Assembly: GCF_000024265.1 (NCBI RefSeq) | Contig: NC_013204.1 | Location: 1,848,180-1,912,179, forward strand | DNA from: Eggerthella lenta DSM 2243 | Lineage (GTDB): Bacteria; Actinomycetota; Coriobacteriia; Coriobacteriales; Eggerthellaceae | Direction: 5' to 3' | Length of the DNA stretch: 64,000 nt | In this document: positions 36,748 through 44,317 of the stretch, in pieces | How positions within the stretch are numbered: the stretch's first letter is position 1 | How the letters are laid out: every line of letters begins with the position of its first letter | Made by a program: the position numbers and the translations under genes | The notes under the pieces: generated by a model | What the model was told of the DNA's origin: nothing | The model's database searches: none | What the model saw: the letters and a program-made list of their open reading frames with translations, nothing else

Positions 36748-36891
36748 GTGGGCGCAAAACGGCACCCATGACGTTTTCTTGAGGCTATCCACTAGGAAAT
36801 CGTATATCGAAAAATTCGCCATCAGGGGCTTTGGTCGACGTCGCACCCGCACGGCACGCGCAAATTGCCATGGGTGCCGTTTTGCGCCCAC
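36748..36891. repeat. 23-bp perfect inverted repeat flanking a 98-bp AT-richer segment
   Basis: GTGGGCGCAAAACGGCACCC (36748-36767, arm to 36770) is the exact complement of 36869-36891. The 98 bases between have a lower GC content than their surroundings. The layout resembles a short non-autonomous mobile element, but no direct repeat flanks it and no transposase is near. A small frame on the - strand here has no ribosome site and was not called. Confidence 0.55.
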
Positions 36892-37067
36892 AACGGCGAA
36901 TCGCTCGCCGACCCCCTGTTTTCTCAGCTGAAATTCCCTCACTCACGCATTTTGCGTGAGAATTTTCGCCATAATTCCTCCACATTTCATCCAGAATGCA
37001 GATAGTTTCGCCATCGTTCGCTGCCTAAAGTTAGCCCAACGGAGGAATGCAGCGAAGGGGGAGGCGC
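36892..37067. other. AT-rich upstream region of the molybdoenzyme locus
   Basis: No gene. A terminator-like hairpin CTCACGCA-TTT-TGCGTGAG with AATTTT lies at 36942-36966. TTTCGCCAT occurs at 36964-36972 and again at 37006-37014, 42 bases apart (four helical turns), and TTCGCCAT also at 36815-36822. These are candidate regulator sites for the genes that follow. Confidence 0.4.
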
Positions 37068-37745
37068 ATGACTGCCATGCAAGATGAAACCGTCGTCGAC
37101 GCGAAAGCCGTCGAGGATCGGCTGGCCGCAATCGAGGACGCGGTATGCCGCCATCCGCTCAACCGCGAGGTGCTCTATCGCATGCTCGCGTACTGCGCCG
37201 AGGAGCGCGCGTTGGACGACCTTGAGCGCGAAGCAGCATCCTGGCCCGAATTCGAAACCGCTACCCAGAACCAGTACCGCCTGGCCGAGCATCTCGTGCG
37301 CGCCGGCGGGCTGGATAGGATCGAGCGAGACGAGCGCGGCGCCATTGTCATGGAACAGGACAAGGAGGGGCTCGACGAGGACGCCGTCGACGACCTCGTG
37401 CGTTCCGTAGCGTTTCGCACCACCGAAGCGGGAGTGCGCTTCGTCGAGCAGCATCGCCCTCGGGCGCGCCTCGTGGAGTTGCTGCAGCTCGCGCCGGAAC
37501 GCGCTGACGTGTATATCGAGCTGCTGGAGTTCGTCCGAGCTCGTCCGCGCGCCTACAACGACATCGCGGAACTGCTGCGTGGGCGCCCCGCGCTGGAAAC
37601 CGTCATCGACGGCGAGCGGCGGCGCATGCAGCCCAGCGTGTTCGTGGACAAGCTGGAGCGCTCGGGCGCTTTGGTCTGGAAAGAAGGTTGGTGTCTGACG
37701 GAGGAGGGGGACGCGTTTCTACGGGATCTGAAGGCAAGCGAGTAG
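37068..37745 (+). CDS. Conserved hypothetical accessory protein of the molybdoenzyme locus
   Basis: A 225-residue, acidic and mainly helical cytosolic protein of no family known to me. There is no signal peptide or membrane segment. The C-terminal part (about 185-225, PSVFVDKLERSGALVWKEGWCLTEEGDAFL) looks like a small winged helix, so DNA or protein binding is possible. GGGGGAGG stands before the ATG. It is 29 bases upstream of the molybdoenzyme and must share its transcript, which suggests a role in control or assembly (inference). Confidence 0.72.
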   Translation: MTAMQDETVVDAKAVEDRLAAIEDAVCRHPLNREVLYRMLAYCAEERALDDLEREAASWPEFETATQNQYRLAEHLVRAGGLDRIERDERGAIVMEQDKEGLDEDAVDDLVRSVAFRTTEAGVRFVEQHRPRARLVELLQLAPERADVYIELLEFVRARPRAYNDIAELLRGRPALETVIDGERRRMQPSVFVDKLERSGALVWKEGWCLTEEGDAFLRDLKASE

Positions 37746-37774
37746 AACCATCATAAGGAGAAAGGTTGGAGAAC

Positions 37775-40603
37775 ATGGCTGAAACCACGTTGACACGTCG
37801 AAGCTTCGTCAAGGCGTCCGCTCTGGTGGGCGCGACGGCGGCGTTCGGCGCTTCGATGGCCGGCTGTATGCAGGAGGCTCCGCAGGAGCAGGCTCCGTCC
37901 GGCGGCGGCGCCGACGAGGGTCTCGTGAGGATGAAGACGTCCTGCCACGGCTGCATCCAGATGTGCCCGGCTATCGCGTATCTGAAGGACGGCGTCGTCG
38001 TAAAGCTGGAAGGCGACCCCGACGCGCCGGTAAGTCGCGGAAGCCTGTGCATCAAGGGCCTCAACCAGCTGCACACCATGTACAGCCCCCGCCGCGTGCT
38101 GCATCCGCTTCGGCGTGCCGGCGAGCGCGGCGAGAACAAATGGGAGGTCATCAGCTGGGACGAGGCCGTCGAGGAAGCGGCCACGCATATCTGCGACGCC
38201 ATCGACAAATACGGCCCCTATTCCTTCTTCGCCAGCGTGGGCGGCGGCGGGGCCTACTCGTTCATGGAGGCCATGACCCTGCCCATGGCGTTCGGGTCGC
38301 CCACCGTGTTCGAGCCCGGCTGCGCCCAGTGCTATCTGCCGCGCTGGAGCATGTCGAAACTGTTCTACGGCGGCAACGACCAGTCCATCGCCGACAACGC
38401 CGTGCAGGAGATATTCCGTCCCGACCCCGACAACAAGGCCGAGGTCGTGGTGCTGTGGGGCGCCCAGCCTTCCGTCAGCCAGACGGCGGAATCGGGTCGC
38501 GGAATGGCCGAGCTGCGCGCCAAGGGCGTGAAGACCATCGTGGTCGATCCCAACTTCTCGCCCGACGCGGTGAAGGCCGACGTGTGGCTGCCGGTGCGCC
38601 CGGCCACCGACACGGGTCTGCTCCTGTGCTGGTTCCGCTACATCTTCGAGAACAAGCTCTACGACGAGCAGTTCACGAAGTACTGGACGAACCTGCCCTT
38701 CCTTATCGACCCCGAGACGAAGCTGCCGGTGAAGGCGCAGGAGCTGTTCCCCGACTTCCAGCAGACCACGCCCGAGAACACCCCGGCCTACGTCTGCTAC
38801 GACCTCAAGACGAACGCAGTGGCGCCCTTCGAGTTCTCCGCGCCCGCCGACGCCGCAGTGGACCCCGAGATCTTCTGGACGGGCGACTTCGAAGGGAAGA
38901 CGTACAAGACCGCCGGCCAGATCTACAAGGAAGAAGCCGATCCCTGGACGCTCGAGCACACCGCCGAGAACTGCTGGCTCGATGCCGGCAAGATCGAAAA
39001 AGCCATCAAGATCTACGCCGAGGCCTCCGTGGCCGGCATCGCCAACGGCGTGGCGTCGGATATGACCGAGTCCGCCTCGCAGGTGCCGCTGGGCTGCATG
39101 GGCCTGGACTCCATCATGGGCTACGTCAACAAGCCCGGCTGCACGATGACGCAGTACGGCGCCGCCGGCGCGCCGCCGACGAAGCGCCCGGTCACGTACA
39201 ACAACGGCTTCGACGGCATGTTCTCGGACATGTACGGCATCGGCGCGGTCATCGGCATGAGCGATGCCGAGAACGAGGCGCGCGCCAAGAAGCTGGGGGA
39301 GGAGAACCCGCAGCAGAAGCTGGCGAACCAGCTGCTCGTCGATCGACTTGGCATGAAGGACCACAAGGGCCTGTACGCATGGTGCCACAGCCATATCCCC
39401 ACGGTGCGCGAGGCCATCGCCACCGGCGAGCCGTACAAGCCGCGCGTGTGGTTCGACATGTCGGGCAACAAGCTGGCCATGCTGGGCAATGCGAAGTCGT
39501 GGTACGACGTGTTCCCCGAGGTCGACTACATCATCGGCCAGTACCCGATGCTCACCTCCTTCCACATCGAGGCCGCCGACCTCGTGTTCCCCGTGCGCGA
39601 GTGGCTGGAAGAGCCCATGGTGAACATGACCCAGCTCAACACCCAGTGGCTGCAGAACGAGTGCGTGCACATCGGCGAGACGGTGTCGCACTCCATCCCA
39701 GCCGCGCAGGTGGTGGCGAAATGCGCGGAGAAGATGGGCGGCGAGCTGCCCGGTCTCAAGCCCGGATACCTGGGCAGCGCCACCGAGGAGGAGGTCAAGG
39801 CCTCCGTCGCCGAGACGCTGCACGCGCCCAGCTGGGACGAGCTGGTGAAGGACGCCGACAAGTACGTGCCCTACGTCACGCCGGCCAGCGAGTACTTCCA
39901 TTACGACCAACATGAAACCGTGGTGGACGATGGCCTGCCTGCCGGCTTCGGCACCGAGTCCCGCAAGATCGAGGTGTACTGCCAGATCCTGCTCAAGCTG
40001 GCGCGCACGGGATATCCGTTCTGCTATCCGGAGCCGCAGGAGCCCTGCGAGGACTACAGCCCCATCTGCTCGTACATCGAGCCGGCGGAGAGCCCGCTAT
40101 CCGACGAGGAGTACCCCTTCGTGCTCACGTCGGGCCGCGTGCCGTACTTCCACCATGGCACCATGCGCCACGCCGCGCTGTCGCGCGAGCTGTTCCCCAC
40201 GGCCGAGATCCGCATCAATCCGGCGAGCGCCAAGGAGCTGGGCATCGAGCATATGGATTGGGTGAAGGTGACCAGCCGCCGCGGCGAGGTGCACGCGCGC
40301 GCCTACCTCACCGAGGGCGTGCATCCGAAAACCGTGTGGATGGAGCGCTTCTGGAACCCGGAGTGCTACGACGAGTCCCAGACGAACCCGACGGCCGGCT
40401 GGCGCGAGTGCAACGTGAACGTGCTCACGAAGAACGACGCCCCGTTCAACGAAGTGTACGGCTCCTACACGAACCGCGGTTTCACGGTGAAGATCGAGAA
40501 GTCCCAGAAACCTGCGAACGTATGGGTGGAGCCCGAGGAGTTCGCGCCGTTCCTGCCGACTGAGGAAATGCTGTCCGAAGCTCAGACGAAGGATGTGTTC
40601 TGA
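37775..40603 (+). CDS. Molybdopterin-dependent oxidoreductase, DMSO-reductase family, Tat-exported
   Basis: A 942-residue bis-MGD enzyme. The N-terminus carries a twin-arginine signal (RRSFVK) with a lipobox-like AGC at about residue 31. A [4Fe-4S] cluster is formed by C57, C60, C64 and C92 (CHGCIQMC... GSLCIKG). The likely Mo-ligand region FEPGCAQCY has C183 and C186, a CxxC; which one binds Mo is open. The C-terminal cofactor domain starts near PFVLTSGRVPYFHHGTMRH. ATG 37775 is chosen; TTG 37766 is possible. With the next genes it makes a membrane-linked reductase. The substrate is unknown; relatives in Eggerthella include catechol dehydroxylases. Confidence 0.9.
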   Translation: MAETTLTRRSFVKASALVGATAAFGASMAGCMQEAPQEQAPSGGGADEGLVRMKTSCHGCIQMCPAIAYLKDGVVVKLEGDPDAPVSRGSLCIKGLNQLHTMYSPRRVLHPLRRAGERGENKWEVISWDEAVEEAATHICDAIDKYGPYSFFASVGGGGAYSFMEAMTLPMAFGSPTVFEPGCAQCYLPRWSMSKLFYGGNDQSIADNAVQEIFRPDPDNKAEVVVLWGAQPSVSQTAESGRGMAELRAKGVKTIVVDPNFSPDAVKADVWLPVRPATDTGLLLCWFRYIFENKLYDEQFTKYWTNLPFLIDPETKLPVKAQELFPDFQQTTPENTPAYVCYDLKTNAVAPFEFSAPADAAVDPEIFWTGDFEGKTYKTAGQIYKEEADPWTLEHTAENCWLDAGKIEKAIKIYAEASVAGIANGVASDMTESASQVPLGCMGLDSIMGYVNKPGCTMTQYGAAGAPPTKRPVTYNNGFDGMFSDMYGIGAVIGMSDAENEARAKKLGEENPQQKLANQLLVDRLGMKDHKGLYAWCHSHIPTVREAIATGEPYKPRVWFDMSGNKLAMLGNAKSWYDVFPEVDYIIGQYPMLTSFHIEAADLVFPVREWLEEPMVNMTQLNTQWLQNECVHIGETVSHSIPAAQVVAKCAEKMGGELPGLKPGYLGSATEEEVKASVAETLHAPSWDELVKDADKYVPYVTPASEYFHYDQHETVVDDGLPAGFGTESRKIEVYCQILLKLARTGYPFCYPEPQEPCEDYSPICSYIEPAESPLSDEEYPFVLTSGRVPYFHHGTMRHAALSRELFPTAEIRINPASAKELGIEHMDWVKVTSRRGEVHARAYLTEGVHPKTVWMERFWNPECYDESQTNPTAGWRECNVNVLTKNDAPFNEVYGSYTNRGFTVKIEKSQKPANVWVEPEEFAPFLPTEEMLSEAQTKDVF

Positions 40604-41217
40604 TGAGAAACTGCCTGGTTATCGATCTCGACCGCTGCAGCGGATGCGACGGCTGCGTTGCGGCCTGCAAGCTTGAGAACAACGTCGATTTGGGCGTGTG
40701 CTACAACCGCGTGCACGCCGTGGGACCCACGGGCACCTTCCCGGACATCGAGCAGTACTGGATTCCCCTGCAATGCCAGCAGTGCGAGAACCCCGGCTGC
40801 ATCGAAGTGTGCCCGACGGGCGCATCGTACCGCGACGAAGCCACGGGCGTGGTGCTGGTCAATGCCGAGGAGTGCATCGGGTGCGAATCGTGCCTGAAGG
40901 GCTGCCCGTACAATGTGCGCACGCTCAATCCGAACACGAATGTGGTGGAGAAGTGCACGTTGTGCTTCCAGCGACATGAGGAGGAGGACTGGGTGCCGGC
41001 CTGCGTGCACAACTGCTGCTGCGGCGCGCGCTACTTCGGCGACCTGGACGATCCCGACAGCTCCGCTGCGAAGGCTGTTGCGGCGGCTGGCGCGGAGAAC
41101 TGCCACCAGCTTGACGATCCGCACGGGCTCAAACCGGCGACGATCTACATCTTGTCCGCCGCAACGGCGGCATGGCAGGGCGATCCTGTGACGACGGACC
41201 GCGTGTCCGCATCGTAA
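40603..41217 (+). CDS. Four-cluster ferredoxin-like subunit (DmsB/NrfC type)
   Basis: The 204-residue electron-transfer partner of the molybdoenzyme. Four cysteine groups for [4Fe-4S] clusters are visible: CSGCDGCVAACK, CQQCENPGCIEVCP, CIGCESCLKGCPY and CTLC with CVHNC. It has no signal of its own and would be exported with the Tat-bearing subunit. Its ATG overlaps the end of the catalytic gene by one base (TGATG), so translation is coupled. Confidence 0.93.
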   Translation: MRNCLVIDLDRCSGCDGCVAACKLENNVDLGVCYNRVHAVGPTGTFPDIEQYWIPLQCQQCENPGCIEVCPTGASYRDEATGVVLVNAEECIGCESCLKGCPYNVRTLNPNTNVVEKCTLCFQRHEEEDWVPACVHNCCCGARYFGDLDDPDSSAAKAVAAAGAENCHQLDDPHGLKPATIYILSAATAAWQGDPVTTDRVSAS

Positions 41218-41235
41218 GCCCGCGCGCTGCAACCC

Positions 41236-41274
41236 GTCCCGGCAGGCCGAACCCCTCCCAAGGCCTGCCGGGAC
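41236..41274. other. 13-bp hairpin inside the molybdoenzyme operon
   Basis: GTCCCGGCAGGCC (41236-41248) pairs with GGCCTGCCGGGAC (41262-41274) around 13 bases. No T-run. It sits between the ferredoxin and chaperone genes and may be an RNA-stabilising or partial-termination element that sets their ratio. Confidence 0.5.
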
Positions 41275-41327
41275 ACGGTAGCGCGTCCAAGCCAGGGGTC
41301 GAGAAGCAACGAGAAAGGGGAGTCACG

Positions 41328-42017
41328 ATGATGGAGACGCAGACCTGCGCGGGCCTCGTGTCGGCGCTCGAGGGTCGCGCGGCGTTCTACGACGTGGTGG
41401 CGGCGCTGTACTACAAACCGCTCGCCCAAGAGCAGATCGACCGCATTGCCGAGGGAGGCCTTGCGGCATTCGCCGGCGCGGGAGAGCTCATGGCGGAGGG
41501 CCTGCACGACATGGAGCGCGCGCTGTCAAAGCGGCACTCCGGCACGCGCCAGGAGCTGGCAGTGGACTTCACGGGCGCCTTCGCCGGGACGTCGTCGTGG
41601 AAAGGCCGCTACGCCACGCCCTACGAGTCGGTGTTCACGAGCGAGGAAGGCCTGCTGTTTCAGGACTCCTACCACGAGGTGTACCGCCTGTACCGCCAGA
41701 ACAGCGTGCGGAAAAGCCCCGGCTACGACTTCCCCGACGACCACCTGTCGTACCTCTGCGAGTTCCAGGCTCTCCTGGCGAGGCGGGCCGTGCGCTCGCT
41801 CGAGGCGAACGATGCGGAATGCGCGCTCGAGCAAGTGCGCCTTTCGCAGCACGTGCTGCACGACCATATCCTGTCGTGGTTCGACGACTTCGAGGAGCTG
41901 GCGCTGCACTTGGTGAAAACGCGTTTCTACCGCGGCGTGCTGAAGATGAGCAAGGGCTTCTTCCTGTTCGACGCCGAGGTGCTGGCCGATATGGCGGAGG
42001 AGTTGGAGAGGCTATGA
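41328..42017 (+). CDS. TorD/DmsD-like molybdoenzyme chaperone
   Basis: A 229-residue, all-helical cytosolic protein. Features of the TorD family include the block YATPYESVFTSEEGLLFQDSYHEVYRLYRQ, SPGYDFPDDHLSYLCEFQALL and HILSWFDDF. Such proteins bind the Tat signal and help load the molybdenum cofactor. GAAAGGGGAG stands before the ATG at 41328; a second ATG follows. The gene overlaps the next one (ATGA). Confidence 0.88.
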   Translation: MMETQTCAGLVSALEGRAAFYDVVAALYYKPLAQEQIDRIAEGGLAAFAGAGELMAEGLHDMERALSKRHSGTRQELAVDFTGAFAGTSSWKGRYATPYESVFTSEEGLLFQDSYHEVYRLYRQNSVRKSPGYDFPDDHLSYLCEFQALLARRAVRSLEANDAECALEQVRLSQHVLHDHILSWFDDFEELALHLVKTRFYRGVLKMSKGFFLFDAEVLADMAEELERL

Positions 42018-42697
42018 CGTTCGCGCTGGTGCTCGCATGCACGGTTGCCGCCTGCTTCGCGCTGCGCAACCCCCTCAAAGCCTGCCCGATGGCGTTCTAT
42101 GCGGCGGCCCTGCTCGTGGACGTCGCCTTCGTGGCGGGGACGTTCTGGGGCATGCCGCGCGAGGTGTGGAGCGTGTTCTTCGTCCTTATCCAGAAATGCC
42201 TGCTGCCGCTGGCTCTGTTCGTCGTGGTGATGTACATCGGCGTGCTGGATCGCGGATCGCGCGCGTGCATGTGGCTCAAGCCCGTGCGCGCCGAGCTGTC
42301 CATCGTCGCCTGGCTCCTGTCGCTCGGCCACGTGGCCGTGTACGGGGCCACGTACCTGCCGCGGATCGCGACGGGCGGGGCGACGAACGGCAACGTGGTC
42401 GCCTCGTTCGCGGTGGCCGTCGTGCTGCTGGCGCTGCTGGCCGTGCTGGGCGTCACGTCGTTCAACTTGGTGAAGAAGCGCATGCGCACCGAAACCTGGA
42501 AGAAGGTGCAGAAGCTCGCCTACCCGTTCTTCCTGCTCACGTACGTGCACCTGCTGCTGATGCTGGCCCCGTCTGCGCTGCATGGCGGCGTTGCGGCGAC
42601 GACAAGCGTTGCGGTATACTCGATCGTGTTCGCGGCATACGTCGTTTTGCGGCTCGTCCGCGCGGCGAAGGATCGCCGTATCCGCGAAGCCGTCTGA
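42014..42697 (+). CDS. Haem-type membrane subunit (ferric-reductase-like/MsrQ-like)
   Basis: A 227-residue membrane protein with about six segments. Histidines within segments (LGHVAVYG and LTYVHLLLML) fit haem ligation as in the ferric-reductase-like transmembrane family. It would replace the usual DmsC/NrfD anchor and pass quinol electrons to the ferredoxin subunit, an inference from its place in the operon. The ATG overlaps the chaperone stop. No other membrane anchor is in the locus. Confidence 0.75.
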   Translation: MTFALVLACTVAACFALRNPLKACPMAFYAAALLVDVAFVAGTFWGMPREVWSVFFVLIQKCLLPLALFVVVMYIGVLDRGSRACMWLKPVRAELSIVAWLLSLGHVAVYGATYLPRIATGGATNGNVVASFAVAVVLLALLAVLGVTSFNLVKKRMRTETWKKVQKLAYPFFLLTYVHLLLMLAPSALHGGVAATTSVAVYSIVFAAYVVLRLVRAAKDRRIREAV

Positions 42698-42760
42698 CGC
42701 TCGAGGGGAAGCGCGCGGTTCGGGCTGTCGTCCGTTTCGGGAGGGGGAGTCGACGGCTTC

Positions 42761-44317
42761 ATGAAGGGATTTTTCGAAAAGCTCGTCAAGGCGTGTCCGT
42801 CGCTGCCGTTTCTGGCGTTGGGCGTCTGGCTGGCATGGGCCTACATCGCCTGCAGCGGCACGGCATGGCTCTCCGACACGGAGATGAACGGCGCCAATAT
42901 ATCCACGATGTACATCGTGTTCACGCTGACGTTCGGCATCGTGCTCTTGGCGTCCACCTTTCGGGCGGCTCGCATACGGCAGCTGCTCGAACGCCCCGCC
43001 GTGGTGATCGCCGGCGGCGCGTTCGCTTCGCTCGGCTGCCTCGTCATCGTCCTCATCGGGCCGTACTACCTCACGAAGGTGCTTCCGTACGACCTGATCA
43101 CCGCTCTTTTCTACATCGCCAGCGCCTGCACGGGGCTGGGCACGGCCGTCGTCGGCTTGAAGTGCGGGCAGCTCTACGGCGCCATCGCGCCGCGCAAGGC
43201 CATCCTGTACACGGCGCTGTCGCACGTGGCGATCGCAGTCATCTACTTCACCGTCATCGGATCGCCCTCATGGCAGCCCGTGCCCGGCGGGCCGTCGCTC
43301 GCGGGCATCCTCGCCTTCGTGGGCATGCCGCTTGCGGCAGCCGGAGCCGCCGCGCTGTCGTTCATCGCACCGTTGGGCGAGAAGGCGGAGCGCGCCGAGA
43401 GCCGCTCCCGCTTCCCGCGCTCGTTCTGGAAGCTGGCAGCCGTCACGTTCGCGTTCTCGTTCGTCGTGGTTGCCCTGCGCTCGATGCTCGTCGAGGTGTC
43501 GCCGATCGACGTCACGTTGGACAACACGCGCCTGGTCATGCTGCTGCGCATGGCGATGGCGCTCGTCTTCGCAGCGGCCGCCATCGGCGTGGAGGGCGAG
43601 CGGTTCGATTTCGGAAAGATCTACTCCGTCATCATGGCCGCCGTCGTAGCGCTCATCGCGTTCTGTCCCATCGTTGGCGTCACGCACCTTGGATGGAGCG
43701 CGCTCGTCACGTTCCTCTCGGCGGTCTTCGAATTCGTGCTGTGGTGCATCCTCGCGTTCGTGGTGTACCAACGCCACATCTCGGCCGTACTCGTGTTCGG
43801 CTTCGGTTACGGAGCGTTCATGGCGGGGTCGGGAGCAGGATGGCTGGCGGGCGTGCACGTGTTTCCGCAGATAGCAGCCACGGGCAACTCGATCGTGCTG
43901 TACCTCGTGCTGGCGTTCGCAGTGCTGGCCTGCGCGTTCGTGCTGTTCTCGGAGAAGGAGTTCGATCGTCTGTTCAAGCCCGAAGGGGAGGGGGAGGCCT
44001 CGCTCAACGACCTGCTGGGCGACGAGCTGCCCGGTATGCGCCCCGACGACGCTGACGCGCATACGAACAAGAAGGGGCGCTTCGGGCTGGCCATCGATGC
44101 GCTAGCCGATCAGGCGGGGCTGTCGCGACGCGAGAAGGACGTGCTGCGCTGCCTTGCCATGGGCTACGATGCCGGCGCCGCAGCCAAGCGCCTTCAGGTG
44201 TCGTGGAATACCGTGCGAACCCACACCCGCAACGTGTACGCGAAGCTGGATATCCATTCGCGCCAAGAGCTCATCGACCTCGTCGACCGCGCCACCGAAC
44301 GTACGCAGGAGCGCTGA
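42761..44317 (+). CDS. LuxR-type regulator with 12-segment membrane domain
   Basis: A 518-residue protein. About twelve hydrophobic segments (residues 15-405) resemble a transporter-like sensor; a cytosolic linker leads to a LuxR helix-turn-helix at about 450-510 (LSRREKDVLRCLAMGYDAGAAAKRLQVSWNTVRTHTRNVYAKLDIHSRQELI). Its place at the end of the molybdoenzyme locus points to control of that operon. GGAGGGGGAG precedes the ATG. Its TGA abuts the stop of the convergent gene in the sequence TGATCA. Confidence 0.9.
   Translation: MKGFFEKLVKACPSLPFLALGVWLAWAYIACSGTAWLSDTEMNGANISTMYIVFTLTFGIVLLASTFRAARIRQLLERPAVVIAGGAFASLGCLVIVLIGPYYLTKVLPYDLITALFYIASACTGLGTAVVGLKCGQLYGAIAPRKAILYTALSHVAIAVIYFTVIGSPSWQPVPGGPSLAGILAFVGMPLAAAGAAALSFIAPLGEKAERAESRSRFPRSFWKLAAVTFAFSFVVVALRSMLVEVSPIDVTLDNTRLVMLLRMAMALVFAAAAIGVEGERFDFGKIYSVIMAAVVALIAFCPIVGVTHLGWSALVTFLSAVFEFVLWCILAFVVYQRHISAVLVFGFGYGAFMAGSGAGWLAGVHVFPQIAATGNSIVLYLVLAFAVLACAFVLFSEKEFDRLFKPEGEGEASLNDLLGDELPGMRPDDADAHTNKKGRFGLAIDALADQAGLSRREKDVLRCLAMGYDAGAAAKRLQVSWNTVRTHTRNVYAKLDIHSRQELIDLVDRATERTQER

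Follow-up and report, generated by a model that had tools for sequence, protein, structure and literature searches.

The genomes of Eggerthella and its relatives encode molybdenum reductases by the dozen, with drugs, hormones and dietary compounds as substrates. The locus studied here raises two questions: which compound its enzyme reduces, and how electrons reach an exported catalytic subunit whose membrane partner is not of the usual type. The genome of Eggerthella lenta DSM 2243 is a single contig of 3,632,260 bases (3.63 Mb) with more than 30 molybdopterin oxidoreductase genes, and the analysis was centred on one stretch of 64,000 nucleotides, called the window below. At window positions 37068-44317, six co-directional genes follow one another in the order X-MoA-FeS-TorD-FR-LuxR (Table 1). 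All the reading frames of the original prediction are present in this order, and the Pfam and NCBIfam domain assignments agree with it. The cassette is compact and mostly coupled: the MoA stop and the FeS start share one base (40603), the TorD and FR reading frames overlap (42014/42017), and gaps of 110 and 63 bp separate FeS from TorD and FR from LuxR, respectively. A good Shine-Dalgarno sequence precedes the ATG of X at 37068, and scans for sigma-70 promoters and terminators gave nothing beyond chance. The perfect inverted repeat located between FeS and TorD may form an mRNA hairpin and could possibly set the enzyme:chaperone ratio of the mRNA. The 21-nt end of the small element lying upstream occurs at 20 sites of the genome, many of them in plus/minus pairs about 120-130 bp apart, and a reversed control pattern produced no such site.

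Table 1. Features of the cassette and of its upstream region (window coordinates)
Feature	Position	Strand	Description
Small element, 21-nt perfect inverted-repeat ends GGGCGCAAAACGGCACCCATG	36750..36889	.	MITE/REP-like; upstream neighbour, outside the mechanism
Palindrome CTCACGCA-TTT-TGCGTGAG, 19 bp	36942..36960	.	Candidate operator of the cassette LuxR
X	37068..37745	+	DadhE-family tandem winged-helix protein, putative maturation factor; predicted model, fold matches, paralogue context
MoA	37775..40603	+	Tat-exported (by signal) bis-MGD catalytic subunit; ATG 37775, alternative TTG start 37766
FeS	40603..41217	+	Four [4Fe-4S] electron-transfer subunit, DmsB/NrfC type; domain search
Inverted repeat, perfect 13-bp, GTCCCGGCAGGCC / GGCCTGCCGGGAC	41236..41274	+	FeS-TorD gap; read from the sequence
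TorD-family chaperone	41328..42017	+	PF02613 3e-24, PRK04976 1e-15
FR	42014..42697	+	Ferric-reductase-like membrane subunit; PF01794, invariant H106 and H179
LuxR-type regulator	42761..44317	+	Multi-TM N-terminal domain; PF00196 2e-14; last cassette gene

Orthologues of MoA (at least 77% identity) were found in 22 of 138 Eggerthellaceae genomes, belonging to 9 genera, and the records of the retrieved loci include isolates and MAGs from several animal hosts. A set of 22 orthologous loci was scanned with profiles, some of their contigs ending early. The core X-MoA-FeS-TorD-LuxR is retained wherever the contig permits; in L028, the most divergent of the 22, the X gene was not found. The notion of a self-contained, separately regulated reductase-type cassette is supported. 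The four-cluster ferredoxin and the TorD chaperone were likewise recovered by domain searches, and all 16 cysteines of FeS are invariant in 22/22 sequences.

The catalytic subunit carries a Tat signal (TIGR01409, 21.0 bits versus a cut-off of 16.7) and the Molybdop_Fe4S4, Molybdopterin and Molydop_binding domains. Its domains, metal ligand and FeS partner are those of the DMSO reductase (bis-MGD) family of complex iron-sulfur molybdoenzymes. The [4Fe-4S] motif, CHGC-x3-C completed by a fourth cysteine, corresponds to Cys 60/63/67/95 counted from the TTG, and the Mo-ligand motif is PGCAQCYLPR, in which the ligand is C186 counted from the ATG (C189 from the TTG). In a profile alignment with solved structures, this residue is superimposed on two metal ligands, Cys173 of the Thermus enzyme PsrA and the residue that binds tungsten in acetylene hydratase. 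The four cluster cysteines and the Mo-ligand cysteine are invariant in the orthologues. The CxxC (C183, C186) previously pointed out in this region is real as a motif, but a molybdenum site with two cysteines was dropped, since C186 is the ligand and C183 is replaced by Ala in L024 and by Gly in L028, two divergent orthologues.

Placing the catalytic subunit in a tree of Eggerthella molybdoenzymes had been proposed as a check, and a tree of those of this genome was used here. Enzyme names were matched to genes by position, size and identity: dadh was assigned by the accessory and LuxR/LysR genes adjoining it, hcdh by the length of the gene and Elen_0497 by 64% identity to the hcdh candidate. 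MoA forms a clade with the paralogues located at 774763 and 3210162 (support 1.0), and this clade is sister (0.996) to a group made of Dadh, Hcdh, the five enzymes of the Cadh cluster and an additional enzyme. High identity to an enzyme of known substrate was not observed: in local alignments with the enzymes of dadh, hcdh and the Cadh cluster, MoA reaches about 34% at most. The kinship announced with the catechol dehydroxylases thus holds as a relationship, MoA standing beside and not within the clade of the characterized enzymes, so that the comparison with them is an analogy.

A strict catechol dehydroxylase, removing the para-hydroxyl group of one particular catechol, is an unlikely identity for MoA. 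The published operational cut-off for homologues of this class (>30% identity, E <1e-34) is reached, but locally only (about 310 of 945 aa): MoA matches Dadh with 31.6% identity over 313 aa of its N-terminal third (E 5e-35) and the enzyme at 635502, probably Elen_0497, with 33.5% (E 2e-43), whereas identity across all aligned columns is 26-29% to Dadh and the Hcdh candidate. The FeS, DadhE-like, TorD and LuxR partners are also common to both systems. Besides the position of MoA in the tree, the cluster motif (CHGCIQMC versus CRxCGKxEC) and the Mo-ligand motif (PGCAQCYLPR versus ICKGPR) argue against this identity, as does the location of the LuxR gene, which is divergent in the dadh cluster and lies at the 3' end of the operon here. 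Distribution is a further difference: the polyphenol and catechol dehydroxylases are strain-variable and the MoA family is broadly conserved across genera, which argues for a commonly available substrate instead of a special dietary compound. The Eggerthella dehydroxylases newly characterized in 2025 are co-localized in one variable cluster elsewhere, and the MoA gene is therefore not among them. A literature search for an Elen_16xx molybdoenzyme, a locus-tag range that is itself a guess, returned nothing.

A second candidate activity is the reduction of inorganic or sulfur compounds (thiosulfate, polysulfide, tetrathionate, arsenate) by an enzyme of the PsrA/PhsA/ArrA kind. Indeed, the best NCBIfam model for MoA is PhsA, with 176 bits, far under the cut-off of 694, and its closest PDB relatives by profile are the Thermus polysulfide reductase (2vpw, 204 bits) and acetylene hydratase (2e7z, 193 bits), whose overall similarity to MoA is low. 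A cysteine is also the Mo ligand in enzymes of this kind. This activity is nevertheless judged improbable: PsrA, represented by its N-terminal part only, groups with the enzymes at 563294, 569972 and 3387417 (support 0.94) and not with MoA, and in this genome the DadhE-family partners accompany only the dehydroxylase superclade. S- and N-oxides were thought less likely as substrates, the ligand of MoA being a cysteine as in PsrA and not a serine as in DmsA, a difference that weighs against such compounds. The predicted structure of MoA is poor (mean pLDDT 68), probably as a result of a shallow alignment, and a Foldseek search with this model returned the whole DMSO reductase family, perchlorate and nitrate reductases ranking first; for these reasons, no substrate was deduced from it. 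The most likely activity would be dehydroxylation, acting on some widely available organic compound, judging by analogy from kinship and shared maturation partners; as a chemistry it is put forward tentatively, at somewhat less than even confidence.

FR, the membrane subunit, matches none of the anchor families of the DmsC/NrfD, NarI or FdnI types, and no DmsC is encoded in this cassette, in line with the prediction that the anchor was not of the DmsC or NrfD type. It is assigned to PF01794 by a score of 30.9 bits, just above the cut-off of 28, and by its two histidines, invariant in 14/14 sequences, which would suit one haem b; FR therefore probably carries a single haem. DmsABC- and PsrABC-type enzymes have in common with the cassette the catalytic and FeS subunits, the dedicated chaperone and an expected quinol-linked membrane subunit, but in these systems the latter is a haem-free DmsC/NrfD protein. 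A likeness is also found in MsrPQ (YedYZ), in which a ferric-reductase-like membrane protein with haem b delivers electrons to a periplasmic molybdenum enzyme. MsrP, however, belongs to the sulfite oxidase family and has no FeS subunit, whereas the enzyme of the cassette is of the bis-MGD type and has five Fe-S clusters. An open-access literature search found no report of a bis-MGD enzyme anchored by a ferric-reductase-like protein.

Comparison of the orthologous loci shows that two membrane modules replace one another around the same catalytic subunit. The architecture X-MoA-FeS-TorD-FR-LuxR was observed in 12 of the 22 loci and X-MoA-FeS-DmsC-TorD-LuxR in 8; FR and DmsC are mutually exclusive, no orthologous cassette containing both, and NapG/NapH-like genes are present in 5/8 DmsC-type loci. 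In a tree of MoA, the loci with FR group in a single clade (SH-aLRT 100) beside the DmsC types, with one separate divergent row. The FR/DmsC label changes only 1-2 times on this tree, versus 7.2 times with shuffled labels, which points to one or two exchanges; a single origin of FR in the orthologous cassettes is possible. The association extends beyond these orthologues. Three FR genes are found in this genome, each adjoining a MoA+FeS pair from a different branch of the tree, and in 14/14 further loci of other genomes FR again lies beside MoA+FeS, where it is the sole membrane subunit identified with the profiles built here. Among 396 sampled genomes of the phylum, FR is confined to Eggerthellaceae (10 genomes).

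The function of this module can be considered in the light of the dadh cluster (dadhABC-RS-DEFGHI; PMC11887054, PMC9734109). Both systems comprise a Tat-exported bis-MGD subunit, a four-cluster FeS protein, a DadhE-like protein, TorD and a membrane LuxR, but DadhC, D, G, H and I are absent from the cassette, which has FR instead. The A/B/C organization of catechol dehydroxylases with a DmsC-like anchor is thus not that of this locus, in which FR replaces C, and is encountered in the 8 orthologous cassettes that contain C. Genetically, dadhB, dadR and dadhD-H are indispensable and dadhC is not (PMC11887054). The electron role that FR must fill would therefore be that of DadhG and DadhH rather than that of DadhC, and FR most simply takes over electron entry. 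It probably replaces both DmsC and the NapG/NapH-like ferredoxins in this function. The dispensability of dadhC can also be read differently, as a sign that a dedicated anchor need not exist: FR would then be an accessory or sensory haem protein, and an enzyme without fixed anchor would receive its electrons from a shared NapG/NapH pair. Proteins of this type are encoded in other cassettes of the genome and could act in trans. An accessory role is considered unlikely, since in the orthologous cassettes FR substitutes exactly for DmsC, NapGH being missing as well, and since it is the only membrane protein found next to MoA+FeS in the further loci described above. Electron entry through FR remains the preferred reading. 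The natural exchange between two membrane modules serving the same catalytic subunit (70-84% identical) makes this question testable, and, if confirmed, FR would give a textbook class of enzymes an additional membrane partner.

As a separate observation, the dadh locus of this genome contains a transposase-like ORF (L053:17262-18482, genome about 612262-613482), presumably IS110-like, which interrupts the NapH-like gene occupying the place of DadhH. E. lenta DSM 2243 has been called a dopamine non-metabolizing strain (PMC11887054).

The first gene of the cassette had been considered as encoding a protein of unknown affiliation, and a comparison with Pfam and NCBIfam gave no family reaching its cut-off. 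X is nevertheless not an orphan. The genome contains five paralogues of X, each adjoining TorD and/or dehydroxylase-type (bis-MGD) genes, and one of them, in the dadh locus, lies between a 620-residue ORF and TorD, that is, at the DadhE position. According to the gene order published in PMC11887054, this gene (609643) would encode DadhE. The match between X and DadhE has a profile E of 3e-11 in a five-sequence search, for a low identity of 22-30%, and homologues of X stand beside TorD genes in dehydroxylase-type clusters; on gene order and profile, X is assigned to the DadhE family, present in 45/296 sampled genomes of the class. The predicted model of X (pLDDT 93.1, 24-sequence alignment) consists of two winged-helix domains. 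A TorD-like chaperone, which is a helical bundle, was ruled out by this tandem fold. Each half matches winged helices of the MarR/PadR/ArsR type (Z about 8-9.6), a similarity that indicates fold and not function.

This resemblance, together with its position as first gene of the operon, could designate X as a DNA-binding regulator of the cassette. Such a role is seen as quite unlikely. Dopamine was no longer dehydroxylated once dadhE had been deleted, and DadhE was reported in 2025 as indispensable for Dadh activity, while loss of the Dadh protein is listed for the dadR and dadhD deletions only (PMC11887054). Moreover, the X genes pair with TorD genes and the cassette already possesses a LuxR. 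By analogy with DadhE, X is most likely a maturation factor, which would use its winged helices for protein contacts. The DadhE maturation factor is in this way extended beyond the catechol dehydroxylases and given a fold.

The last gene encodes a LuxR-type regulator, as had been anticipated. A hydropathy scan shows a long multi-TM N-terminal domain, followed by the C-terminal HTH. With its adjoining metabolic enzyme, this protein is of a known kind, the 10-12-TM membrane LuxR family of Coriobacteriia, the membrane part of this assignment being based on hydropathy only. E. lenta possesses 83 such proteins, among which DadR, CadR and HcdR switch on neighbouring enzymes in response to their substrate (PMC9734109). 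These three regulators have the same multi-TM N-terminus, GerE HTH and molybdoenzyme neighbour, and the cassette LuxR differs from them as the last gene of its own operon. A candidate operator is provided by the palindrome located upstream of X, which occurs only once in the genome even at up to 3 mismatches. When each locus was compared with its own 200 shuffles (p <= 0.005), this palindrome (at least 13/16 matches) was detected upstream of 11/19 orthologous cassettes, including one of the DmsC type, or 9/17 without the two defining sequences. It was not recognizable in some FR cassettes (L013, L014, L020) and in most DmsC cassettes. The palindrome could be the piece needed to make the membrane LuxR a reporter capable of identifying the substrate.

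Taken as a whole, the cassette would encode a terminal reductase that is exported, linked to quinol and organized on the plan of the Eggerthella dopamine dehydroxylase (A, B, E, F and regulator R), with another electron entry. In the cytoplasm, TorD and X would help MoA to fold and to receive bis-MGD, and the Tat system would then export MoA along with FeS. On the external side of the membrane, FR with its single haem would take electrons from menaquinol and pass them to the four FeS clusters, the single MoA cluster and the C186-ligated Mo centre, which would remove oxygen, in all likelihood in the form of a hydroxyl group, from an organic compound that is frequent in the gut of animals. This substrate would be sensed by the membrane LuxR, activating the operon through the upstream palindrome. 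Gene content and order, their conservation, the cluster and Mo-ligand residues, the fold of X, the FR/DmsC exchange and the conservation of the palindrome come directly from the data; the haem, menaquinol, the direction of electron flow, the class of substrate and the function of the operator are inferred. This explanation is regarded as somewhat more probable than not in its entirety, and its architecture and electron route as slightly more so. A broader proposal, for which confidence is evenly balanced, is that FR belongs to an additional class among the membrane subunits of complex iron-sulfur molybdoenzymes. It would be a ferric-reductase-like quinol dehydrogenase with one haem, restricted to Eggerthellaceae, which displaces DmsC and NapG/NapH and, with the tandem winged-helix maturation factor, serves a widely conserved reductase whose substrate is possibly not a catechol. 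Three elements are new relative to the literature reached: FR as a recurring subunit exchanged with DmsC/NapGH, the wider range and the fold of the DadhE family, and the palindrome as a candidate operator.

Several minor observations emerged from the same comparisons. Only four G/C runs of at least 9 occur in the 22 orthologous loci, all within the cassette LuxR (L012:16507, L031:16460, L013:8169 and L023:14282), and in L012, L031 and L023 the membrane and HTH parts of this gene are in different frames, possibly reflecting a slippage switch or an assembly error. Phase variation of LuxR was set aside, as poly-G runs are common in these genomes and no enrichment of tracts of at least 8 in LuxR genes was seen in the portions of this genome examined (1/14 tracts). 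In a comparison of L023 with L012/L031, a MAG named Rubneribacter avistercoris harbours an FR-type cassette 91% identical to that of Eggerthella, while the other Rubneribacter genomes compared contain a DmsC-type cassette (84% identity); a transfer of the whole cassette is possible. Three related molybdoenzyme cassettes, including two DadhE-family genes, stand in tandem in Adlercreutzia equolifaciens (L020), where FR was seen in the middle cassette only and the third is truncated at the limit of the stretch. Finally, a formate-dehydrogenase-like gene of the E. lenta genome (2643127-2645835, G000:C1) contains an in-frame TGA, probably encoding selenocysteine.
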